Assembly: GCA_003569365.1 (NCBI GenBank)
Contig: BGOS01000026.1
Location: 1-54,540, forward strand
Length of the DNA: 54,540 nt
DNA from: Anaerolineaceae bacterium
Lineage (GTDB): Bacteria; Chloroflexota; Anaerolineae; Anaerolineales; UBA11657
Reading direction: 5' to 3'
Below the pieces are notes generated by a model, which made no database searches, had not been told where the DNA came from, and saw only the letters and a list, made by a program, of their open reading frames with translations. Below, piece after piece: positions 20,581-51,083 of the stretch; the stretch's first letter is position 1; every line of letters begins with the position of its first letter. The position numbers and the translations under genes are program-made.

Positions 20581-21579
20581 GTGACCGTACTCGCAGCGCT
20601 CTATTCTGATCTGCACCATTTGGGGCTCATCCAAAAAGGAGTTGAGCCTGCCGCACAGCCTTTGGCGGGCGGTGTGTCTTCGGACATCTGGAAAGTGGAG
20701 CTTGCAGCTGGTCCGATAGTATTCAAGCGCGCACTGGCAAAACTTAAGGTGGCGCAAGACTGGCAGGCGCCGGTTGAGCGCTCGCGTTTCGAAATTCGGT
20801 GGCTGCGCACTGTTGCGCAAATACTTCCAGATGCTGTGCCAAACTTAATCGCGGCTGATGAGGAGCGCGGTATTTTTGCGGTTGCATATTTGGATCCACT
20901 GAAATACCTTTTGTGGAAACAACAGTTACTTAATGGCTATGTTCAGCCTGCGACAGCAGCAGAAGTTGGCAGGCGTCTGGCGATCATCCACGCAGCAACT
21001 GCCAGCAACCTTGCCATGAGCAGCTTGTTTCCGTCAGACGCAATCTTCCATGAGATCCGGCTTGCTCCTTATCTGGAAGCCGCGGCGCTCTGCCACCCGG
21101 ACTTGTCAGACGCGCTGCTGCAGCTGGTGGCAATCACGGCCCGGACCAAGCGCGCGCTGGTGCATGGCGATGTCAGCCCAAAGAACATCCTGATCGGATC
21201 CAATGGCCCGGTGTTTCTGGATGCAGAATGCGCTTGGTATGGTGACCCGGCATTCGACCTTGCTTTTTGCCTCAATCATCTTTTGCTAAAGTGTCTGGTG
21301 TGCCCGGCGGAGAAAGGATTGCTGCTCGATTCATTTTTTGCGCTGGCCGGGAGCTATTTGCACGGCGTAAACTGGGAGCTGCCTGCAGAATTGGAAGCAC
21401 GCGCCGCGCACCTGCTGCCGGGTTTGATGTTGGCGCGTGTCGACGGCAAATCACCCGTCGAGTACATCACTGAAAGTGGCGCCAAGCACAGTGTGCGGCG
21501 TGTAGCCCGCCAGTTTTTGGCGGCACCGGCAGCTATGCTTGGGTTGATTGTAGAAGAGTGGCGGCGGGAGTTGCGATGA
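20581..21579 (+). CDS. APH/choline-kinase-fold small-molecule kinase
   Basis: A protein of about 332 aa with the aminoglycoside-phosphotransferase (protein-kinase-like) fold. It shows IVFKRALAKLKV (candidate ATP-binding Lys), ALVHGDVSPKNILIG (the HGDxxxxN catalytic loop, normally HGDLHxGN), and GPVFLDAECAWYGDPAFDLAF (the metal-binding D of the IDxE/DFG-like motif). The start is uncertain: no ATG is in frame after the previous gene; GTG at 20581 is used here, but farther GTG/TTG codons exist. It overlaps the next gene by 4 bases (ATGA), which implies that kinase and enolase-like enzyme act together. The substrate is unknown; antibiotic resistance is unlikely from this context. Confidence 0.7.
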   Translation: MTVLAALYSDLHHLGLIQKGVEPAAQPLAGGVSSDIWKVELAAGPIVFKRALAKLKVAQDWQAPVERSRFEIRWLRTVAQILPDAVPNLIAADEERGIFAVAYLDPLKYLLWKQQLLNGYVQPATAAEVGRRLAIIHAATASNLAMSSLFPSDAIFHEIRLAPYLEAAALCHPDLSDALLQLVAITARTKRALVHGDVSPKNILIGSNGPVFLDAECAWYGDPAFDLAFCLNHLLLKCLVCPAEKGLLLDSFFALAGSYLHGVNWELPAELEARAAHLLPGLMLARVDGKSPVEYITESGAKHSVRRVARQFLAAPAAMLGLIVEEWRRELR

Positions 21580-22850
21580 TGCCAACCAAAATTGTGAAGC
21601 TCCGCGGGCGGCGAGTGTGGGACTCGCGCGGCCGGCCGACGGTTGAGGCGGAGGTGCATTTGGCCTGTGGTGCCGTTGGCCGCGCAATTGCCCCTGCGGG
21701 CGCCTCCACCGGCTCGGGCGAGGCGCTGGACTTGCGCGATGGCGGCGGACAGTTTGGCGGCCTTGATGTCACGCAGGCCATCGCAAATGTTCAAGTGCCA
21801 ATTGCGGCTACGCTCAATGGGCTTGATGCTGCGGATCAGGCTGGCGTTGATGCTGCCTTGATTGCACTTGATGGCACGCCGCAGAAGCGCCACTTGGGCG
21901 GGAATGCAATGATTGCCACCTCGATGGCAGTTGCGCGCGCTGCAGCTGCAGCTGCAAACCAGCCCCTGTGGCAATACCTTGGCGGCAACGGTCCCATGCC
22001 GCTGCCGCAAATCCAGATTTTTGGCGGCGGTGCGCACGCAAATCGGCGCGTCGATATACAAGACTTTATGGTGATACCCGTTGGCGCCACGGAATATTCT
22101 GAAGCGCTCGATTGGACTGCCCGCGTGTACGCAGCCGCCGGCCGGATCATGGCCGATGCCGGCAACTTGGCAGGCGTTGCGGACGAGGGCGGGTTCTGGC
22201 CGAACTTTAATTCTAATGAAGCGGCTGTTGAAACATTGGTCAGGGCGATTGAGAAAGCCGGGTTAACTCCCGGCACAGATGTCGCGATTGCGATTGATGT
22301 TGCGGCCAGCACTTTTGGCCAGGGTGGAATTTATCAGCTGGGCCTCGAGCGCAAGCGGGTTGACTCTGATGCACTTTCGGAGATGCTGCTGCGCTGGCTT
22401 GAGCGTTACCCGATTGTGTCAGTCGAAGATCCCATGGGTGAAGATGATGGCGCTGCGTTCGCGCGCTTTACCAGTGCCGCCGGGCCGAAAGTGCAAGTGG
22501 TAGGAGATGACTTACTGGTTACCAATGCCAGCCGGATTAGTGATGCGGCGGCGCACAGCGCCTGCAACGCTGTGCTGATAAAGCCGAACCAAGCTGGTAC
22601 TCTCACCGAAACAAAGCTGGCGCTGGATGAAACCCGCCGCGTTGGTTATGCGCCAATTGTATCTGCGCGCTCTGGCGAGAGTGAAGACACAATCATTGTC
22701 CACCTTGCTGTTGGCTGGGGTGTCCCGCAATTAAAAGTCGGTGCGTTTGCGCGTTCCGAGCGTATGGCTAAATGGAATGAAGGCTTGCGCTTAGCCGAGA
22801 TTGTCGGCGGTAGTCTTCCGCCAAAAAACTCCTTTGCATGGGGCCGATGA
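21576..22850 (+). CDS. Enolase paralogue with an altered active site
   Basis: A 424-aa protein of the enolase family (normally 2-phosphoglycerate dehydration to phosphoenolpyruvate). Kept motifs: VWDSRGRPTVEAEV, GGAHANRRVDIQDFMV (AHAN), VADEGGFWPNF, VSVEDPMGEDDG (metal Glu), VQVVGDDLLVTN (metal Asp), VLIKPNQAGTLTET (catalytic Lys). Near residue 365, however, the usual SHRSGETED reads SARSGESED, so the substrate-phosphate-binding His (H373 in yeast numbering) is Ala; the later Lys in the LKVGAFARSERMAKWN block is present. The first ATG at 21576 overlaps the kinase stop and has GGAG 5 bases upstream. A true second enolase cannot be excluded, but the His change and the paired kinase suggest a modified substrate. 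Confidence 0.8.
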   Translation: MMPTKIVKLRGRRVWDSRGRPTVEAEVHLACGAVGRAIAPAGASTGSGEALDLRDGGGQFGGLDVTQAIANVQVPIAATLNGLDAADQAGVDAALIALDGTPQKRHLGGNAMIATSMAVARAAAAAANQPLWQYLGGNGPMPLPQIQIFGGGAHANRRVDIQDFMVIPVGATEYSEALDWTARVYAAAGRIMADAGNLAGVADEGGFWPNFNSNEAAVETLVRAIEKAGLTPGTDVAIAIDVAASTFGQGGIYQLGLERKRVDSDALSEMLLRWLERYPIVSVEDPMGEDDGAAFARFTSAAGPKVQVVGDDLLVTNASRISDAAAHSACNAVLIKPNQAGTLTETKLALDETRRVGYAPIVSARSGESEDTIIVHLAVGWGVPQLKVGAFARSERMAKWNEGLRLAEIVGGSLPPKNSFAWGR

Positions 22851-24747: not shown

Positions 24748-26313
24748 TTAGCCCCAGTCGCGCAGCACCTGGCGCGCAGCGTTGTGGCCGTTGATGCCGG
24801 TGCAGCCGCCACCAGGATGTGTGCCGGCGCCGCACAAATACAACTGCTTGATGGGCGTGCGATATTGCGCGCAATCGGGTATGGGGCGCATGTGCAGCGC
24901 CTGGTCTAATGTCATCTCGCCGTGCGTTGCGCTGCCTTCGGGCAGGCCGTAGTTGCGCTCCAAGTCCAGTGGGGTCAGTACTTGGCTATGCAGCACAAGC
25001 TGCGGCACATCCGGTGCAAATTGCGCCAGCGTGCTTAGGATGGCGCTGCCCAGCGTGGCGCGCTGCGTGTCCCAGTCCTGGCTGCGCAAGTGGTACGGCG
25101 CGTACTGGGCGTGAATGGACAGCACATGCTGCCCGGGCGGGGCAAGCGTCGCATCCGCCAGCGTTGGCAGCGTTACATCCAGCCATGGCTGTTGTGACCA
25201 GGTGCCATACTTGGCCGCATCACTGGCTTGCTCAATATAGTTGATGCTTGGCGCAATGCGAATGCGCGCTGTCGCATCAAATGCAAAGCGCGGCACACCG
25301 GACAAAGCCAGATGCATACGCGCGCTGCAGCCGCGGTATTTGATGGTGCCCGTGCTGCGCAGAAACACAGGGTCAACCTCCAGCGGATCAAGCAAGCGCT
25401 GAAAAGTTGTGCGCGGGTCTGCGTTGGAAATGACAACCTGCGCGCTGATTTCTTCTCCGCTGGCAAGCACCACACCCGCAGCGCGGCCGGCTTTCACCAC
25501 CACCTGCTGCACGGCAGCGTTCAGACGCAGCTGCGCACCCATGCTTGTGGCGGCTTTTGCGAGTGCCTGGGTTAGTGCGCCGACTCCGCCCTGCAACTGG
25601 CTGGCTGCTGCAAATGCCGGCACTTGCCCGGCTGCCAGCGCCAGCAGCCACACAAACGCCGTGCCCGCCTGCCGCGGCCCCAATGACACGCCATGCACGC
25701 CATCAACCGCAAGCGCGGCTTTGAGTGCGTCGCACTCAAACCATTCATCGAGCATGTCTGACACCGGCATGGGCAAAGTGCGAACAAGATCGCCAAGTTG
25801 CTTGCGGTTGAGGCGCCGCGCGGGCGCCACCAGCTTCAGCAGCTCCAGTAGGTCGCGGCCACTTGGTGCCGGCAGCGCGGGCGGGATCAGCATCATCAAG
25901 CGCGCCACCACCGCTGCAAGGCACTGCATGGCAGCGCAGAAATCCGGCCAGCGTGCGGCATCTGCCTTCGAGTGGCGCGCAATTTCTGCAGCGGTGCGGG
26001 CTGTGTCGCTGTAGAAGCTCAGGCGGCCGCCAGCCGGCAGCGCAGCCGTTAGCAGCGCGTCAATTGGCAGCAGCTTTAAGCCGTGCTTGTGCAGCTGCAG
26101 GTCAGCCGCCACATGTGCAACCAGGCGCCCCGTGCCTTCGGCCACACTGGAAAAACGGAAGCCGGGAAACAACTCCTCGGTAACAGCAGCGCCGCCCACC
26201 TGGGGCTGCTGCTCCAGCACCAGCACGCGTTTGCCGGCGCGCGCCAAATAGGATGCGGCCACCAGTCCATTGTGCCCGGCGCCCACAATCAACGCATCAA
26301 AAGTTTCAGCCAT
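24748..26313 (-). CDS. PYROXD2/phytoene-desaturase-like FAD oxidoreductase (copy A)
   Basis: A 521-aa flavoprotein of the amine-oxidase/CrtI superfamily. The N-terminal dinucleotide motif reads LIVGAGHNGLVAASYLARAG with the downstream acidic residue in VLVLEQQ, followed by GGAAVTEELFPGF. The C-terminus has LYLCGAGTHPGGGCTGINGH, the second FAD-contact GG motif. The overall layout matches PYROXD2-type proteins and all-trans-retinol saturases. It is the last of three tandem copies; its start at 26313 overlaps the stop of copy B by 8 bases. Substrate and reaction are unknown; no membrane helices are seen. Confidence 0.88.
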   Translation of the reverse strand: MAETFDALIVGAGHNGLVAASYLARAGKRVLVLEQQPQVGGAAVTEELFPGFRFSSVAEGTGRLVAHVAADLQLHKHGLKLLPIDALLTAALPAGGRLSFYSDTARTAAEIARHSKADAARWPDFCAAMQCLAAVVARLMMLIPPALPAPSGRDLLELLKLVAPARRLNRKQLGDLVRTLPMPVSDMLDEWFECDALKAALAVDGVHGVSLGPRQAGTAFVWLLALAAGQVPAFAAASQLQGGVGALTQALAKAATSMGAQLRLNAAVQQVVVKAGRAAGVVLASGEEISAQVVISNADPRTTFQRLLDPLEVDPVFLRSTGTIKYRGCSARMHLALSGVPRFAFDATARIRIAPSINYIEQASDAAKYGTWSQQPWLDVTLPTLADATLAPPGQHVLSIHAQYAPYHLRSQDWDTQRATLGSAILSTLAQFAPDVPQLVLHSQVLTPLDLERNYGLPEGSATHGEMTLDQALHMRPIPDCAQYRTPIKQLYLCGAGTHPGGGCTGINGHNAARQVLRDWG

Positions 26314-27886
26314 GCAGCAGCTCCATCGCAGCATTGCGCCCGTTGATGCCAACCACGCCGCCGCCGGGATGCGTGCACGCACCGCACAGATACACGCCCG
26401 GCATGGGCGTGCGATGCGCAAAGCGCTTGTCCCACATATAGTCTGGCAGGCACTCGCCCTGAAAGATGTGGCCGCCAGTGAGGCCCACGCTCTGTTCGAT
26501 GTCCGGCGGGCCCAGCACCTCGCGGTCAATAATTGCATCCGGCAGGTTGGGGCAGAAGCGCGCAATCGAGTCGATCACCAGCTGCCCGGCTGCAACGCGG
26601 TGCGAGTCCCAATCGCCTGTGGCAAACGTGGCGGGTGCGTACTGCGCAAACACACTCATGGTGTGGGTGCCGGCCGGCGCCACTGACTCGTCATACACAC
26701 TTTGCAGATAGATCTCGGTCCACATGTGCGCGGGCAGGTGGCCAGCGCGCGCTGTTTGATGCGCAGCATGCAACTGCGGCGCGCTTAGCGGCGTATTGAT
26801 GACGGCGCGGTGATGTGGCTCGTCAGATCCGGGCCGCGCCGTAAAGTTGGGCAGCGCGCGAAGCGCCAAGTTCACTTTGACCGTAGCACTTTGCATTGGC
26901 CATGCGGCCACCTTGCGGCGCCACTCCGGGTTGGCGGCGTCTCCCAGCAGGCGCAGTGTCACTGCCGGGTCTGCATTGGAGATGACGACAGGCGCGTTGA
27001 TGCGTTCGCCGCCCGCCAACTCCACACCCTCTCCCGGCAGAATGCGGGCCACCGGCACGCCGCACGCAATGGTTGCGCCCAGCTCGCGCGCCACATCGCC
27101 CAAGATGAAAGAGACCATGCCCATGCCGCCTTTCACATAACCCCATTGCCCGATCGAGTCGCCCATTCGCCCGCAAAAATGGTAGAAGTAAATTGACGCG
27201 GTGCCGCGCTCGTACGGGCTGGCATTCGTGCCAATCACGCCCTGGCCAAGGTAAGCCATTTGCAGGCGTTCATCTTTTAGATAGCGCTCCACATACTCAA
27301 CCATCGACCAGTTGAAGAGCAGGTTGATGGCATCTGCATCGCCATTGAGCCGCGCCTGCACCTGCGCAGCGGTGGGGGCGCGGCCAATCCACATGTCGCG
27401 CGCGTCCGCCGGGCGCACGGCTTCCGTGGCGCGGCTCATCACCGCCTGCATTGCAATCCAGCCATCCACATCGCCGGGCGCAAAGCGCTCAATTTCCGCG
27501 ATGCAGCGCGTGTCGTCATCCCACAACTGCACACTTGAGCCGTCTTCAAACGGGATGAACATGCCGCCGGCCGCGTGCTGCCATTCAAAGCCATGCGCGC
27601 GCAATCTCAATTCGTCAATCACCAGCGGGTGCAGAATGCCTGCCACGTATGCGCACGGCGACATGCGGATGCCGGGCCACGGTTCCGCAATGGTGCATGC
27701 GCCGCCCACGCGTTCGCGTGCCTCCAGCACCAGCACGCGCTTGCCAGCCCGCGCCAGATACGCAGCGCAAGCCAGCCCGTTGTGGCCAGCGCCAACGATG
27801 ATGGCATCCCACTTAACAGCGGCCAGCTCGCGGAGTGGCGCTGGCAGCCCCAGCTTGCCAAGGCATGCTGCAGTCGCGGATGTCAT
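26306..27886 (-). CDS. PYROXD2/phytoene-desaturase-like FAD oxidoreductase (copy B)
   Basis: A 526-aa flavoprotein. ATG at 27886 begins MTSATAACLGKLGLPAPL, a ~27-residue lead before the FAD motif IIVGAGHNGLACAAYLARAG; the N-terminal extension is longer than in the sister copies. Later blocks: RVGGACTIAEPWPGI, YFYHFCGRMGDSIGQWGYV, and CGACTHPGGGVVGINGRNA at the C-terminus. This copy is the most different of the three in its middle region, so it may oxidise a different substrate or form a complex with A or C. It lies 50 bases downstream of copy C and overlaps copy A. A redox partner is not visible in the window. Confidence 0.88.
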   Translation of the reverse strand: MTSATAACLGKLGLPAPLRELAAVKWDAIIVGAGHNGLACAAYLARAGKRVLVLEARERVGGACTIAEPWPGIRMSPCAYVAGILHPLVIDELRLRAHGFEWQHAAGGMFIPFEDGSSVQLWDDDTRCIAEIERFAPGDVDGWIAMQAVMSRATEAVRPADARDMWIGRAPTAAQVQARLNGDADAINLLFNWSMVEYVERYLKDERLQMAYLGQGVIGTNASPYERGTASIYFYHFCGRMGDSIGQWGYVKGGMGMVSFILGDVARELGATIACGVPVARILPGEGVELAGGERINAPVVISNADPAVTLRLLGDAANPEWRRKVAAWPMQSATVKVNLALRALPNFTARPGSDEPHHRAVINTPLSAPQLHAAHQTARAGHLPAHMWTEIYLQSVYDESVAPAGTHTMSVFAQYAPATFATGDWDSHRVAAGQLVIDSIARFCPNLPDAIIDREVLGPPDIEQSVGLTGGHIFQGECLPDYMWDKRFAHRTPMPGVYLCGACTHPGGGVVGINGRNAAMELLHG

Positions 27887-27936
27887 TGGCCGGGTGCAAC
27901 CGCGCACTGCGGTTGCTTGCGCAGCGCTGCGCGCAT

Positions 27937-29514
27937 CTACTTGCTGCTCCGTAATATTTCCATGGCAGCCAGGCGCCCCGGCCCGCCAGTGATGCCGCCG
28001 CCGGGATGCGTGCCAGACCCGCATTGGTAATAGTTGCGGATGGGTGTGCGGAACTTGGCCCAGCCGGCGGTGGGCCGCAAAAAGAAAATCTGGTCCAGGG
28101 TTAGCTCGCCGTGAAAGATGTTGCCTTCTGCCAGCCCGAAGTCTTGCTCCAGATCCCAGGGCGACAGCACTTGCCGGTGCAGGATCAGCTTTTTTATGCC
28201 CGGCGCAAATTCCTCCAGCGTATTCACCACGGCATCGCCAAAGGCATCGCGCTGTTGTGCGCTCCAACCGCCGTTCAGCTTGTAGGGCGCGTATTGCACA
28301 AAGATGCTCATCACATGTTTGCCGGGCGGTGCCAGTGTGGGGTCGATGGTGGACGGGATGAGCACGTCTAAAAATGGCCGGCGCGAAAACTCGCCGTACT
28401 TGGCATCGTCGTAAGCGCGCTCCACAAAGTCCACGCTCGGGCAAATTTCAATCATGCCTTGCAGCAGCGCGCGGTCCGGCATGCTGGTGAAGGTGGGCAG
28501 GCCATCGAGCGCCAGGTTCACCTTGCCGGAAGAGCCGCGATATTTAAAGTTGCCAATGGCGGTTGCAAATTCAGCTGGCAGCTGCCGGCTGTCCACCAGC
28601 TTAAGAAAAGTCTGGCGCGGGTCCAGCCCGGAGACCACTGTGCGCGCGCGGATCTCCTCGCCGCTCTCGAGTGCCACGCCCACCGCCTGCCCGTTGCGCA
28701 CAATCACTTGGGCCACAGGCGCGTTGCAGCGCAGCACGGCGCCGTGCTGCCGGGCCGCGCCGGCAATTGCGTTGCTGACGGCGCCAGTGCCGCCTTTTTG
28801 AAAACCCCAAACAGTGAAGGCGCCGTCCAGCTCGCCCATAAAGTGATGCAGCATCACATACGCAGTACCCGGCGAGCGCGGGCCCAGCATTGTGCCGATG
28901 ATGCCGTTGATTGCAGTCAGCGCCTTGAGAACGTCACTCTCAAACCACTCATCCAAAAAGTCTGTGGCGCTCATCGTCATCAGTTTTGTGAGCTGTTGGA
29001 AGGTGCGCGCATCCAGACCTTTGGCATGCCGTCCCAGTTCCAACAGCCGGCGCAGATCATCCACGCCCGGGCTCAGCGGATTTGGCGGAACCATCCCCAG
29101 GATGGGCTTCACGGCGAAGCCCATCTTGTACATCATCTGGTTGAACTCAGGGTATGCGTCTGCATCGCGCCTGGAGTGGCGCTGCAGTTCTGTGCGCGTT
29201 GTGGCCGGGTCAGACCACAGCGCCAAGTGGTCGCCGTTTTCCATCGGCACGAATGCGCTGTCGAGCGGCAGAATTTGCAGCCCGTGGCGCGGCAGCTCGA
29301 GATCACGGATGATCTCCGGGCGCAGCAGGCTCACCACATACGAGCACACCGTGTAAGTGAAGCCCGGAAAAATTTGCTCTGATACAGCAGCGCCGCCCAA
29401 AATGTGGCGGCGCTCCAGCACCAGCACTTTGCGCCCGGCGCGCGCCAGATAGGCAGCGCACGTCAGCCCGTTGTGGCCGCCGCCAATAATTACGGCATCA
29501 TAAATCTCAGCCAT
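27937..29514 (-). CDS. PYROXD2/phytoene-desaturase-like FAD oxidoreductase (copy C)
   Basis: A 525-aa flavoprotein with the N-terminal VIIGGGHNGLTCAAYLARAG, the ERRHILGGAAVSEQIFPGF segment, and the C-terminal CGSGTHPGGGITGGPGRLA. The mid-domain LGPRSPGTAYVMLHHFMGEL is close to the PYROXD2 pattern. Size and motif spacing match copy A closely; both share the LFPGF/IFPGF turn. It starts 42 bases after the GcvT-fold gene stop, so all five genes from the Rieske oxygenase onwards probably form one operon. The in vivo electron acceptor and substrate are unknown. Confidence 0.88.
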   Translation of the reverse strand: MAEIYDAVIIGGGHNGLTCAAYLARAGRKVLVLERRHILGGAAVSEQIFPGFTYTVCSYVVSLLRPEIIRDLELPRHGLQILPLDSAFVPMENGDHLALWSDPATTRTELQRHSRRDADAYPEFNQMMYKMGFAVKPILGMVPPNPLSPGVDDLRRLLELGRHAKGLDARTFQQLTKLMTMSATDFLDEWFESDVLKALTAINGIIGTMLGPRSPGTAYVMLHHFMGELDGAFTVWGFQKGGTGAVSNAIAGAARQHGAVLRCNAPVAQVIVRNGQAVGVALESGEEIRARTVVSGLDPRQTFLKLVDSRQLPAEFATAIGNFKYRGSSGKVNLALDGLPTFTSMPDRALLQGMIEICPSVDFVERAYDDAKYGEFSRRPFLDVLIPSTIDPTLAPPGKHVMSIFVQYAPYKLNGGWSAQQRDAFGDAVVNTLEEFAPGIKKLILHRQVLSPWDLEQDFGLAEGNIFHGELTLDQIFFLRPTAGWAKFRTPIRNYYQCGSGTHPGGGITGGPGRLAAMEILRSSK

Positions 29515-45590: not shown

Positions 45591-47023
45591 CTCTGGTGCA
45601 GCGCGAGATTAATCTGCAACGGCCGGCGTGGTGGCTGCTGCTCGATGGCGTGCTGATCAATTTGGCCTCCGCATTAGCGTGGTACATCCGCTACGAGCTG
45701 GCCTGGTTCCGCAGCCTCGATCCGGTTTTCTACACAAGCCTGACGGCTTACGCGCCGCTGTTTGCCGGCCTTACGGCTCTGCTGCTGGTGGTATTGAGCG
45801 CCAACGGAACCTACAATGTGCGCCGTGGCCTCTCATGGGTGGAGGAAATGTTTCGCGTGGCGAATGCCGCGCTGGTGGCGCTTGTGGTGCTGGTTGCGAT
45901 CACATTTTTTGCGCGCCCACTGGCATTTTCGCGGCTGCTATTTTTCTATGATGGTGTACTGATCGTTGCCCTGCTTGGCATGGCACGCGCCTTTCGGCGC
46001 CTGCTTGAAGAACGGCTGCGCGCGCGCGGCTACAACCTTGTGCGCGTGTTGATTGTTGGTGGCGGAGAAGCGGGCCGCTCGGTGATGAGCGCGATCATGG
46101 CGCAGCCCCAGCTTGGGTACGATGTGGTCGGCTTCCTGGATGACGATCCACAAGTGGGTTCTACGGACATCGGGCGCTACCGTGCACTTGGCAGCACAAG
46201 TCAATTTGAAAACGTACTTCGCCGCGAGCGTGTGCGCGAGGCCATCATCACCCTGCCGTGGCACCAGCAGCCGGTGATCGGCCAGTTGATGGCCAGCAGC
46301 GCACGCTGTGGCGTAGCTGCGCGCGTTGTGCCAGACATGTTTCAGCTCAACCTCAGCCGGGTAACCGTTGATGAGATTGCCGGTGTGCCGCTGATTGGCC
46401 TCAAGGACAGCACCGCTGGAACGGGCGGGCGCGTGGTGAAGCGCACCATCGATCTGGCGCTTGCGCTGCTGCTACTGGTGTGTGCTGCCCCCATACTGGC
46501 ACTGATCGCGCTGCTGATTGCCGTAGACTCGCGTGGCCCCGTTTTGTTTTCGCAGCTGCGTGTGGGCTGGCATGGGCGCCAGTTTCGTATGCTCAAGTTT
46601 CGGTCAATGCAGCTTGGCGCGGAGGAACAGCTGCCGGGCCTGGCTTCCTTGAACGAGGCCAGTGGCCCGCTGTTTAAAATCAGGGATGATCCGCGGCATA
46701 CGCGGGTGGGCCGGTGGCTGCGGCGCCTGAGCTGGGATGAGCTGCCGCAATTGGTAAACGTGCTGCGCGGCGAGATGAGCCTGGTGGGACCGCGGCCGGG
46801 CTTGCCGGTGGAAGTTGCGCAGTATCAGGAGTGGCACCGCGAGCGCCTGCACGCACTGCCCGGCATCACCGGCTTATGGCAGGTGTCGGGCCGCAGCGAC
46901 GTCTCATTTGATGAAATGTGCCTGATGGATATTTACTACATGCAGAATTGGTCGCTGGCAATGGACACAACAATCTTGCTGCGCACTGTGCCGCGGGCAC
47001 TATTTGGGCGCGGGGCGTATTAA
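45587..47023 (+). CDS. Polyprenyl glycosylphosphotransferase (WcaJ/WbaP type)
   Basis: A 478-aa initiating enzyme of exopolysaccharide or O-antigen synthesis; it would load a sugar-1-phosphate onto undecaprenyl phosphate. Four membrane helices (about residues 18-130) precede a Rossmann CoA-binding-like domain with VLIVGGGEAGRSVM. A fifth helix (ALALLLLVCAAPILALIALL) leads into the catalytic bacterial-sugar-transferase domain: RGPVLFSQLRVGWHGR, MLKFRSMQ, RLSWDELPQLVNVLRGEMSL-type sequence, VGPRPG and PGITGLWQVSGRS. All key motifs are intact. It is likely the last gene of the plus-strand operon from 42040. Confidence 0.95.
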   Translation: MTLVQREINLQRPAWWLLLDGVLINLASALAWYIRYELAWFRSLDPVFYTSLTAYAPLFAGLTALLLVVLSANGTYNVRRGLSWVEEMFRVANAALVALVVLVAITFFARPLAFSRLLFFYDGVLIVALLGMARAFRRLLEERLRARGYNLVRVLIVGGGEAGRSVMSAIMAQPQLGYDVVGFLDDDPQVGSTDIGRYRALGSTSQFENVLRRERVREAIITLPWHQQPVIGQLMASSARCGVAARVVPDMFQLNLSRVTVDEIAGVPLIGLKDSTAGTGGRVVKRTIDLALALLLLVCAAPILALIALLIAVDSRGPVLFSQLRVGWHGRQFRMLKFRSMQLGAEEQLPGLASLNEASGPLFKIRDDPRHTRVGRWLRRLSWDELPQLVNVLRGEMSLVGPRPGLPVEVAQYQEWHRERLHALPGITGLWQVSGRSDVSFDEMCLMDIYYMQNWSLAMDTTILLRTVPRALFGRGAY

Positions 47024-47099
47024 GGCGGGGATGTGCGCGAAAATTTTGCACTAAAAGAAGGCGCCGCTGTTTAGCAACCCCGAACAGCTGTCGAATGAA

Positions 47100-47867
47100 C
47101 TAAGCAGGGTGGCGGGCTTGATGGCTTCTGAACTTCCGAATCAATCGCCGCAAATATGCGACAAGCACAAAGTATTCATTGATGGTTCGCAAAACATTGA
47201 TCTTGCTTGCTCCACGCTTGACCCCGTAGTCGTACACGAATGGAATTTCAGCCACTTTTGGGGCCAGCAACGACAGTTTTATCAATAGTTCTGCGTTTGC
47301 CACAAAGCCGTGGGTTTGGATTAACCCCGCGTCGCCAAAGTATGGGAGCGCTGCGCGCAAGGAACTAATTCGATACGCCCTGAAAAATATGGTGTAATCA
47401 AATACGTTTGGAATTGGAAAATAATGCCGCATCATACGGTTGGCAAGGTGGCTGAATAGCAGCCGTGCCCACGGGAAGTTTTTATAGGCACCGCCGTGCA
47501 AATAGCGCGATGCAATCACAATATCTTTGCCTTTGTGGCGGATCTCATCCAGCATCAGGGGTATCAAGTCAATTGCGCTGGTTTGATCACTCTCAAGAAT
47601 CACAAGCAGGTCGCCAGCCTGTGCCTGTGCCGCAACATAAATAATTCCTGTCGAAAACACCGCGCCAATGTTCAGGTTGACGCGGGTGCCAAGCACAATC
47701 AAGTCGGGCCCGCTCAGTTCCTTCAGGATTGCATCGGTGCGGTCGGTACTGCCATCATTCACCGCAACAATTTTGATATCACCATTAAATTGCCCTGCCC
47801 TCAGCCCGGAAATTACAGAAGCAATATTGGCTTCCTCATTAAACACCGGCAGCAAAAAATAAATCAT
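47100..47867 (-). CDS. Glycosyltransferase family 2
   Basis: A 255-aa GT-A enzyme without long C-terminal helices. Motifs: YFLLPVFNEEANIASVISGL, VAVNDGSTDRTDAIL, VILESDQTSAIDLIPLML (metal site, here E-S-D rather than D-A-D), and FFRAYRISSLRAAL. The C-terminus has GASKINVLRTINEYFVLV, typical of polyprenyl-phosphate mannosyltransferase-like GT2. It converges with the initiating phosphotransferase and lies 9 bases downstream of a membrane-protein gene, so those two are likely co-transcribed. Base composition in this region looks more AT-rich than in the housekeeping block. Confidence 0.85.
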   Translation of the reverse strand: MIYFLLPVFNEEANIASVISGLRAGQFNGDIKIVAVNDGSTDRTDAILKELSGPDLIVLGTRVNLNIGAVFSTGIIYVAAQAQAGDLLVILESDQTSAIDLIPLMLDEIRHKGKDIVIASRYLHGGAYKNFPWARLLFSHLANRMMRHYFPIPNVFDYTIFFRAYRISSLRAALPYFGDAGLIQTHGFVANAELLIKLSLLAPKVAEIPFVYDYGVKRGASKINVLRTINEYFVLVAYLRRLIRKFRSHQARHPA

Positions 47868-47876
47868 CGCAGAAGT

Positions 47877-49308
47877 TTATTTGCGCACATACACTTGCCA
47901 GAACTTGGAGTAGAACATGGTATCCCACGCAGTGCTCGGAAAGTCAGTCTCCGCTCCACCAAACCGAGGTGACCAAACAACGATCGCTTTTGAGATTGTG
48001 GGGTCAATTTGGGTGCGAGAATGCTTGAACCGGGGAAGCTGGAGTGAGAAGTCACGCGCTAGGTGGGCTGGAATTGCTCCGGCCGCCTCCATTCCATTGC
48101 AGAAAACCAACTCCTGGCGTGCAGCCGCTTGGAACGCTGAGTTGCCGCGAACCCAAGCCATCAAATTTTGGGTGTCGTAGTGGTAAAAGCTTTCGCGGGT
48201 CAAGGCCCACTGCGACACCAGCATATTGAAGAATAGTGCCCCAATCGGAATCAATACCTGAAAGATCGTGCTGGTTTGTGGCAACATCTGCGCCACAAAA
48301 ATTGCAACCGGAAATGCAAAAAAGATGCCCAGCGGTCCCGCATAATACGAAATTGTGCTCCATGGCAGCAGGATCGCAACGTACCCGCCGTACATAAGCA
48401 CACCCGTAAATATCCCCCATTTCTGGCGTGCGGTAAACAGTGCAAGCTGCCGCAGTTTAGGTCCGGAACGGGATGCTGCGGCACCCAGCAGCACAACAAG
48501 AATGACCCACGGAAGATGGTTTGCAAAATCTTTTGACAACCAAGCAGAAAAGTTTCCAGACATACGGGACCAATTGGTAAAGGAATAGGAACTCGTATAA
48601 GCGCCCTGTGCAAACACCTTTAGACCAATCCCATAGGTGGCTGTTCCCACTAGGTTTACCAAACCCACCCATAACGCTCTCGAACGTATCTCACTCTCGA
48701 TCCAACCTAGGATAGTAAATCCAAGACCGAATGCCACCCCGACAGCAACCAGAGGTTCCTTTGCGCCAAAACCAATAACCATAAATAAACGCCGGCTATA
48801 AACAAGGTGGTAAATTGGAATGGGGAAGGCGCTTCGAAACTTATCAAAAGCAATTAAGTGCAAGACCACAAAAGAGTACGCCCAGGATTTCATGCGTAGA
48901 CAAGAAAAAAAAGGTGTCGTAAAAATAATGAAAAGACAATGTGACTGCAACGAAAATCGGCATAGAGGCGCACTTCCCAGAAATGCGCTGGACTGCTGCG
49001 CCCCAAACAGAAAGGACCAAACATGCTTCTATCCACTTAAGAACATGCATAGAAATAGGTGAATACCGAAACATTGAAAAGAAGATTGCCTGATGCAGTG
49101 CGAAGGTGGGCTTAAATTCTCCAAATGCTAGGAAGCCACGGAAAATAGAGCTGAACCGCTTTGTGACTACGGACCCATCGGAGATAAGGCCGGCGTCATC
49201 CATTAATCCCCAATACCACTCCTGTAGGTAGAAGCTCAACAGTATCGTGAGTAGTGGTACTGTGGCCGGAAAAAACCAAATAAAGAATAGAATGCTTCGT
49301 TGTGCCAT
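47877..49308 (-). pseudogene. Polytopic membrane protein, frameshifted copy
   Basis: About 476 residues if the frame is rejoined, matching its 482-aa neighbour at 49635. The first frame (49308 to about 48845) contains SFYLQEWYWGLMDDAG and DTFFFLSTHEILGVLFCGLALN; the second resumes at about 48860 and includes KEPLVAVGVAFGL, YAGPLGIFFAFPVAIFVAQM and ends in DTMFYSKFWQVYVRK. A one-base change near 48845-48860, in a T-run, explains the break. Eleven or so helices are predicted. It may be a GT-C-like or O-antigen-related membrane protein, but no diagnostic catalytic motif was seen. Whether it is truly broken is uncertain. Confidence 0.7.
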
Positions 49309-49634
49309 TGGCAGTGGCGTGTCCGCAACGGCGGTCAAGTGTTTTTAGTGCTTAGTGCGCCCACAGAATTAATATTTAGAAAATTCTCGCAGGATGATAG
49401 TTGCTAATCCCGTGCGGGGGCTCTTCAGTGGAAGGAGAACACTCTGCCACTAGCGGGGTAGCAGTGGACATTAAGTGGTTCCGGCATCCCAAAAACCGAG
49501 TTGTAAGGTTCCAACAAAATAGGGCGAATGCAGCATTGTAGATTTCCAGAGGCAGCAGAACATGAGCGGTGATGTCCGAACGAAGAATCTCCCTCTGAGC
49601 TTTTCTTGGGCCACAAAGTAGGTGTATCCCTGCC

Positions 49635-51083
49635 CTATTTATGCACATACACCTGCCAGAACTTGGAGTAGAACATCGTATCCCACACATCTGGCGCGAA
49701 GACATCAGTACTACTGCCGAAGCGCGGTGTATAGACCATTACTTCGCCACTGCGAATTAGATTCTGATCGAAGCCTTGGTACTTGAAACCGGGTATCGAC
49801 ACTCCAAAGTCTCGTCCTAAATGTGCTGGAATTGCACCGCCACCCTCCATTGCGTTGCAGTAAACAAGTTCACTGCGGGCCGCCACTTGGAATGCAGGAT
49901 TGCCCTGAATCCAAGCCATAAGATTCTGGGTGTCGTAGTGATAGAGGCTCTCGCGGGTAAGCGCCCATTGCGACACGAACATATTAAGCAGAAGTGCAGC
50001 TACCGGAGTTAATACCTGCAGTGCGATGCTGGTATGCGGCAAAATCTGCGCAACAAAGATGGCAACAGGGATGGCGAAAAATACACCGAGTGGCCCAGCA
50101 TAGTATGCAGTGGTGTTCCAAGGCAGAATAATTAGAAAATAACCACCATACAGTAGCAGGCCGATCACAATGCCCCATTTTTGTCGTGGGGTGAACAATA
50201 GTCCAAGCCTCATTCCGGCTTTGGATACAAAGGCTGCAAATCCCGCCATTATTACGGTAGCCAGCCATGGGCTGTGATTAAATAGGTCTTTACTCGTCCA
50301 AGAGGAGAGGTTACCTAATAATCGGGGCACATTCGTTAGCGAGTAACTGCTCGCATGAGCGGATGGTGTCATTCCAAATCTTAAAAAGAGGGCGTAGCCC
50401 AACGACGCCGTAAATACCATACCACCAAGAAGAAGTGCTTGCCTGCTATTGTGTTTATCAACAAAGCTGAGAAGAACAAAACTAAGCCCAAGTGCAATTC
50501 CAACTGCCACCATTGGTTCCTTGGTTGTTATCGCGAGCGATGAGCACAGTACTCCAAGAGCCCACAGGATGATGAACCGAGTTTGTGAACCTGCTTCAAG
50601 TGTACCGAGGAAGAAATTTAGCGCAAGACCCCAGAAAAGAAGACCAAGAACTTCATGGGTGGAAATGAAAAAAAACGTATCGTACAAATTATGAAAGGAC
50701 AGAGTAACCGCGACAAATATTAGTGCAGCACGGTGATTGCCACCGATTTTGCGTACAGCATTACCCCACACTACAAGCATTAGACATGCTTCTGTCCACT
50801 TCAGAACATGAAGCAGTACTGGATTATGTTCAAACCAAGTGTAGAAGATTGCGGAGTGCAGTGAAAATGTGAATTGCATGCGGCCGGCTGAAAATCCGCG
50901 TGCGCCAAAATCATTAGAAAAGCGCTCCACAACAGTGCGACCCATGCCTAGAATTGAGGTATCATCCATCAGCCCCCAATACCATTCCTGTAAATAGAAA
51001 CTTAGAAGAATTGTGCCCAGCGGCACTATGATGGGGAATATCCAGAGCAGATTTAGATTGGCGTATTTTTCAAATGTTCGCAT
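49635..51083 (-). CDS. Polytopic membrane protein, intact copy
   Basis: A 482-aa protein with about eleven membrane helices. After helix 1 it has SFYLQEWYWGLMDDTS, whose acidic DD pair resembles the first-loop acid of GT-C glycosyltransferases. VTLSFHNLYDTFFFISTHEV follows, then KEPMVAVGIALGL, PLGVFFAIPVAIFVAQI and a C-terminal soluble segment ending DTMFYSKFWQVYVHK. It is a tandem paralogue of the gene at 47877, separated by a 326-base gap (49309-49634) in which I see no gene, only a possible shadow frame. Lipid-linked sugar donors from the neighbouring phosphotransferase and GT2 would fit such an enzyme, but this is inference. Confidence 0.75.
   Translation of the reverse strand: MRTFEKYANLNLLWIFPIIVPLGTILLSFYLQEWYWGLMDDTSILGMGRTVVERFSNDFGARGFSAGRMQFTFSLHSAIFYTWFEHNPVLLHVLKWTEACLMLVVWGNAVRKIGGNHRAALIFVAVTLSFHNLYDTFFFISTHEVLGLLFWGLALNFFLGTLEAGSQTRFIILWALGVLCSSLAITTKEPMVAVGIALGLSFVLLSFVDKHNSRQALLLGGMVFTASLGYALFLRFGMTPSAHASSYSLTNVPRLLGNLSSWTSKDLFNHSPWLATVIMAGFAAFVSKAGMRLGLLFTPRQKWGIVIGLLLYGGYFLIILPWNTTAYYAGPLGVFFAIPVAIFVAQILPHTSIALQVLTPVAALLLNMFVSQWALTRESLYHYDTQNLMAWIQGNPAFQVAARSELVYCNAMEGGGAIPAHLGRDFGVSIPGFKYQGFDQNLIRSGEVMVYTPRFGSSTDVFAPDVWDTMFYSKFWQVYVHK

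Follow-up and report, generated by a model that had tools for sequence, protein, structure and literature searches.

The window analyzed here is a 54,540-nucleotide stretch of DNA from an Anaerolineaceae bacterium (Chloroflexota). On its plus strand, a gene encoding a 332-amino-acid small-molecule kinase (20581..21579; GTG start, TGA stop) is followed by a gene encoding a 424-amino-acid enolase paralog with altered C3-hydroxyl ligands (21576..22850; ATG start, TGA stop). As the initial annotation had noted, the two genes overlap by four bases; the ATGA at 21576..21579 (plus strand), read directly from the sequence, contains both the kinase stop and the enolase start. The identical four-base overlap could be read in 56 examined loci of the paralog. 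The pair lies between unrelated genes in the window itself (ilvE and DUF1648 on one side, GNAT and DUF92 on the other), which give no indication of a local pathway. Elsewhere in the window, three mutually similar phytoene-desaturase-like FAD proteins are encoded in tandem on the minus strand (24748-29514), and the region 47001-51000 has a GC content of ~0.46-0.50, compared with ~0.60-0.65 elsewhere, and is possibly a recent insertion.

Family assignment and origin of the two genes

The kinase has the APH/MTR-kinase fold. Its Pfam APH domain (65 bits) contains the HGD...N motif and the metal-binding Asp, and the motifs HGDVSPKN and LDAEC (HGD-SPKN, LDAE) are invariant among its aligned relatives. 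The AlphaFold2 model (pLDDT 94) is closest, among solved folds, to 5-methylthioribose kinase (2pyw, TM 0.82). Identity as a 5-methylthioribose kinase was rejected based on a TIGR01767 score of 57 bits against an equivalog cut-off of 275. In a Pfam search, the window kinase matched neither of the known glycerate kinase folds, PF02595 and PF13660.

The paralog has the Enolase_N and Enolase_C architecture and scores 458 bits against TIGR01060 (cut-off 300), so annotation pipelines would label the gene phosphopyruvate hydratase. Its AlphaFold2 model (pLDDT 90) is nearest in fold to E. coli enolase (6npf, TM 0.93). Structure-model alignments were made with window and genome-contig sequences only. 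No solved structure of the kinase family or of the kinase-linked enolase family was retrieved by sequence search. The proposal of a modified enolase had been made to depend on this not being the only enolase of the organism, and a second, canonical enolase with SHRSGETED, 46% identical to the paralog, is encoded on contig 5 of the window's genome (G000; 2.6 Mb, 95.5% complete). Five other Chloroflexota genomes (G400, G429, G452, G469, and G505) encode two enolases each and were absent among the kinase-search matches; these may hold further enolase variants without this kinase.

The sequences nearest to the window pair come from the same genus (genome G001 and L022, a Chloroflexi MAG), and in a quick tree this trio nests among Rhodospirillaceae sequences. 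Within the genus, the pair occupies one site, in the order dnaK-ilvE-DUF1648-pair-GNAT-DUF92. Sister genera retain dnaK-ilvE (a DUF1648-like gene is present in two of these genera) and lack the pair at this site where the contig continues; a search for the kinase elsewhere in the sister-genus genomes did not find it. The genus thus probably gained the pair by transfer from Pseudomonadota, as judged from phylogeny and synteny. Acquisition had been suspected earlier from composition judged by eye, which carries less of the case: GC3 of the pair region is 0.59, compared with 0.64-0.80 in most neighbors, and agrees weakly with transfer, but the adjacent GNAT gene is at 0.55 and the overall GC of the pair region is unremarkable.

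Residues around the C3 hydroxyl

In E. coli enolase, whose numbering is used here, the C3 hydroxyl of 2-phosphoglycerate (or of a mimic) is contacted by Glu167, Lys392, and His369, and the phosphate ligands are the Ala40 NH, Ser371, His158, Arg370, and Mg2 (PMC6863902). At the His369 position the paralog has Ala364 (codon 22665..22667, plus strand), within SARSGESED in place of SHRSGETED, a His-to-Ala change that the initial annotation had recognized. That annotation took the missing His to bind phosphate; loss of a phosphate ligand was rejected, since His369 contacts the C3 hydroxyl and the phosphate-binding His158 is kept (PMC6863902). It also missed a second change of a C3-hydroxyl ligand, found by alignment, of Glu167 to Asp163 (codon 22062..22064, plus strand). 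The metal ligands D245, E289, and D316 and the base K341 are present, as had been stated, together with the acid E208. K392, S41, R370, S371, and H158 are retained as well, and with them every phosphate ligand. The paralog therefore has the Mg sites, catalytic Lys and Glu, and phosphate ligands of an enolase and lacks the Glu167/His369 pair. Because this defining ligand pair was tested and found to be altered, the paralog was not filed as EC 4.2.1.11.

Close relatives were gathered by scanning the collection with the peptides PLP[EQ]IQIF and GVADEGG[YWF]. These peptides excluded the SARSGE motif, so the His-to-Ala outcome was not built into the search. H369A and E167D occurred together in all 91 close paralogs in the alignment and in 17 of 17 more distant kinase-linked enolases; both His and Glu were present in 31 of 31 canonical enolases. 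The 17 distant sequences come from Chloroflexota, Actinomycetota, Pseudomonadota, Bacteroidota, and haloarchaea, and most were reached through the kinase search alone. In a wider alignment, E167D, H369A, G206A, and T393V/I were shared by 47/47 kinase-linked enolases and occurred in 0/31 canonical ones, one of which has Ser at T393. We define the kinase-linked enolase subfamily by these four changes and a neighboring kinase, all of which the window locus has. Residues S41, H158, Q166, E208, D245, E289, D316, K341, R370, S371, and K392 are invariant across the kinase-linked and canonical enolases.

The 47-sequence count left out L118 (7193-9918), from an Enterobacter chuandaensis plasmid, where a distant family kinase is divergent from a degenerate enolase-like protein annotated as hypothetical. 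In this protein the catalytic Glu208 is Lys, His369 is Gly, and Glu167 is Asp. The L118 pair precedes aminotransferase, U32 peptidase, and MFS genes, an arrangement that resembles a biosynthetic cluster.

The disappearance of a conserved active-site residue could also mark a noncatalytic enolase with a regulatory or moonlighting role. We find this scarcely credible, given that 91/91 close and 17/17 distant sequences preserve every residue for metal binding, proton transfer, and phosphate binding, which a pseudoenzyme would not be expected to retain.

Distribution and gene neighborhoods of the pair

The kinase-enolase pair, whose conservation had been named as a check on the initial proposal, proved to be conserved very widely. 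The kinase is near the paralog in 83 of 88 loci, usually directly upstream, and in four of the five loci without it the contig ends within 44 bases upstream of the enolase. L047 (10001-11239) is the sole paralog locus with full flanks and no kinase within 10 kb. A kinase-first search of plasmids and 400 Chloroflexota genomes recovered distant kinases, 32-50% identical to the window kinase, in Rhodococcus, Sphingobium, Methylobacterium, Embleya, Persicobacter, Haladaptatus, Halomarina, and other Chloroflexota. In almost every case the kinase adjoins an enolase that is 41-48% identical to the window paralog, with Ala and Asp at the two altered positions; L107, at a contig end, was uninformative. 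These distant pairs span four bacterial phyla and haloarchaea. In a quick tree, canonical enolases form one side of a branch with 99% support, and a single origin of the kinase-linked ones depends on the root. We found no earlier description of a kinase-enolase catabolic pair in the open-access papers searched; as subscription journals were outside the search, novelty is provisional. A lead on 2-phospho-L-glycerate (PMC13228409) concerns a cytidylyltransferase, not a kinase-enolase pair.

The two proteins might instead belong to shared catabolic regulons and act on different intermediates rather than in consecutive steps, as would suit loci of the Rhizobium, Burkholderia, Variovorax, and Streptomyces type, in which several kilobases separate the two genes or the strands differ. 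We consider this unlikely, because the four-base overlap is found in most loci, both gene orders occur across phyla and domains, and many loci conserve nothing else around the pair.

Neighborhood contents were determined with tblastn panels and gene calling over the 88 paralog loci (1.47 Mb total). A D-2-hydroxyacid dehydrogenase was present in 38 of the 88, compared with ~5 expected if such genes were as dense as in the genome that contains the window (9 in 2.63 Mb). The count rises to 43 when PanE/ApbA, a third 2-keto-acid reductase family, is added. Three arrangements recur. In the first, mainly in Rhodospirillales and Acetobacteraceae, the pair stands alone or has, before or after it, a glyoxylate/hydroxypyruvate reductase-type D-2-hydroxyacid dehydrogenase. 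In the second, found in Rhizobium, Burkholderia, Variovorax, Streptomyces, and Sphingobium, a dehydrogenase-kinase pair is accompanied by a LacI regulator, an HpaD-like extradiol dioxygenase, an HpaG-like FAH protein, a cupin, and an alcohol dehydrogenase. Two Rhizobium plasmids have PEP carboxylase upstream of the dehydrogenase and kinase on one strand. The third arrangement is kinase-enolase-FAH-SDR with a LacI regulator and sugar or TTT transporters; its FAH protein is closest to 2,4-diketo-3-deoxy-L-rhamnonate hydrolase, and two of the loci also encode a UxuA-like dehydratase.

Operons of dehydrogenase-kinase-enolase or dehydrogenase-enolase-kinase were seen in Sphingobium and Rhodococcus. 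An L-threonate dehydrogenase above its family cut-off occurred in one locus, DUF1537 kinases with PdxA and GarD-like dehydratases in single loci, and a galactonate dehydratase with a C-terminal-binding-protein type dehydrogenase in the Halomarina locus. These neighbors point to sugar-acid catabolism. On the haloarchaeal plasmids L120 (9957-18957) and L121 (3262-18921), the pair is found with an ilvC-like ketol-acid reductoisomerase, TCP-1-like chaperonins, and several MR/MLE dehydratases, company that may narrow the substrate.

The same data bear on inhibitor resistance, in which the enolase would be a target variant insensitive to phosphonates such as SF2312 and the APH kinase would inactivate the drug. 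The SF2312 hydroxyl is bound by Glu167, Lys392, and His369, two of which are changed here (PMC6863902); resistance kinases are found among APH folds, and the pair is alone in many loci. We nevertheless regard resistance as highly unlikely: LacI regulators, sugar transporters, sugar-acid dehydratases, and hydrolases recur nearby, the nearest kinase fold is metabolic (MTR kinase), and a drug-proof enolase must still use 2-phosphoglycerate, which the changes probably impair.

A more conservative account is that the kinase is an unrecognized D-glycerate 2-kinase and the paralog a second enolase converting D-2-phosphoglycerate to PEP, with residue changes that tune its kinetics. The glyoxylate/hydroxypyruvate reductase-type dehydrogenases adjoining the kinase and the PEP carboxylase in the two Rhizobium loci would fit such an isozyme, and FAH cleavage of diketo-deoxyhexonates would, judging from known pathways, yield glycerate. 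However, both E167 and H369 contact the C3 hydroxyl, and most of the M. tuberculosis enolase point mutants tested were reported to be nonfunctional, except S42A with ~5% (PMC10619443). Both changes are also fixed across domains. A class II (DUF4147, PF13660) glycerate kinase is encoded elsewhere in the window's genome, and D-glycerate therefore already has a path to PEP. Together, that kinase, the canonical enolase, and the inactivity of most active-site mutants disfavor D-2-phosphoglycerate as the substrate, and we judge an isozyme for it rather improbable.

Proposed reaction and comparison with known systems

We favor, with a probability of roughly 0.6, the reading that the two genes encode a two-enzyme catabolic module, in which phosphorylation at O2 is followed by dehydration of a substrate other than D-2-phosphoglycerate. 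The kinase would transfer phosphate from ATP to the 2-hydroxyl of a small acid with hydroxyls at C2 and C3, not D-glycerate itself. By normal enolase chemistry, the kinase-linked enolase would then remove water from C2/C3 and so yield PEP or an analog of it. In that step, Lys would take the C2 proton, Glu would assist loss of the C3 hydroxyl, and two Mg ions would hold the carboxylate. In many genomes, a D-2-hydroxyacid dehydrogenase would make the hydroxy acid from a 2-keto acid before the kinase acts. We infer the order of the steps, the phosphorylation at O2, and the type of product. Enolase chemistry is proposed because the catalytic core is intact, and a change of substrate because two C3-hydroxyl ligands are altered. 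A kinase feeding a modified enolase, as first suggested in the initial annotation, is thus the best-supported reading of the sequences, but the altered residues surround the leaving C3 hydroxyl and not the phosphate.

The substrate would differ from D-2-phosphoglycerate on its C3 side or in configuration, and the leading candidates are 2-phospho-L-glycerate and a C4-or-longer 2-phospho-aldonate. L-2-phosphoglycerate is favored by the occurrence of PEP carboxylase in two loci and by the self-contained nature of the pair in many genomes; the D-specific dehydrogenases, giving the D configuration, do not fit L-glycerate directly. A C3-substituted acid is a candidate in view of the nearby C4/C6 sugar-acid genes and the reduced side-chain size at the two positions, but no constant partner is present to consume an unusual enol phosphate. 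Since contexts differ and many loci consist of the pair alone, one common substrate is an assumption. In its most novel form, the proposal is of an undescribed, cross-domain, ATP-driven dehydration. Starting from a 2,3-dihydroxy acid (L-glycerate or a C4-or-longer sugar acid), the kinase and a repurposed enolase would produce PEP or a new enol phosphate, and the route would substitute for sugar-acid dehydratase pathways or complete them; we give this form an even chance of being correct.

Enolase is regarded as a single-function enzyme of nearly unmatched invariance. If confirmed, a widespread branch with a rebuilt C3-hydroxyl site and its own kinase would mean that the enolase family proper carries out a second physiological reaction, and would add a path into PEP. 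It would also correct many 'phosphopyruvate hydratase' annotations able to mislead metabolic models, and provide a natural system for how enolase recognizes its leaving group. The 'enolase' label has probably masked the route in databases.

Several known systems share features with the pair. Canonical enolase (EC 4.2.1.11) agrees with the kinase-linked enolases in fold (TM 0.93-0.96 to E. coli enolase), in the two Mg sites, and in Lys341, Glu208, Lys392, Ser41, His158, Arg370, and Ser371, whereas the kinase-linked enolases are only ~40-48% identical to it, adjoin a kinase, occupy a separate tree branch, and carry the four residue changes. MtnK (5-methylthioribose kinase; 2olc, 2pyw) has the APH-type fold, the HGD and D(A/P)E motifs, and a small polyhydroxylated substrate, as predicted for the window kinase, but is ~15% identical to it, and no methionine-salvage genes were seen near the window kinase family. 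The class II (DUF4147/MOFRL) glycerate 2-kinase of the serine cycle, with enolase, may follow a similar logic, from hydroxy acid to 2-phospho acid to PEP and, with PEP carboxylase, to oxaloacetate; the kinase folds are unrelated, however, the pair has a dedicated altered enolase, and a class II glycerate kinase is already encoded by the host. Some loci have genes for an SDR, an FAH-type hydrolase, and a dehydratase next to the pair, reminiscent of diketo-hydrolase sugar-acid pathways of the L-rhamnonate/L-fuconate type (SDR and FAH hydrolase); the kinase and altered enolase are extra to the known steps. LxmK/LxmY of class V lanthipeptides resembles the pair only in how it works, in that an APH-fold kinase activates a hydroxyl ahead of elimination. 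There, the phosphate itself is eliminated from the peptide by an unrelated lyase, whereas the enolase here would retain the phosphate and lose water.
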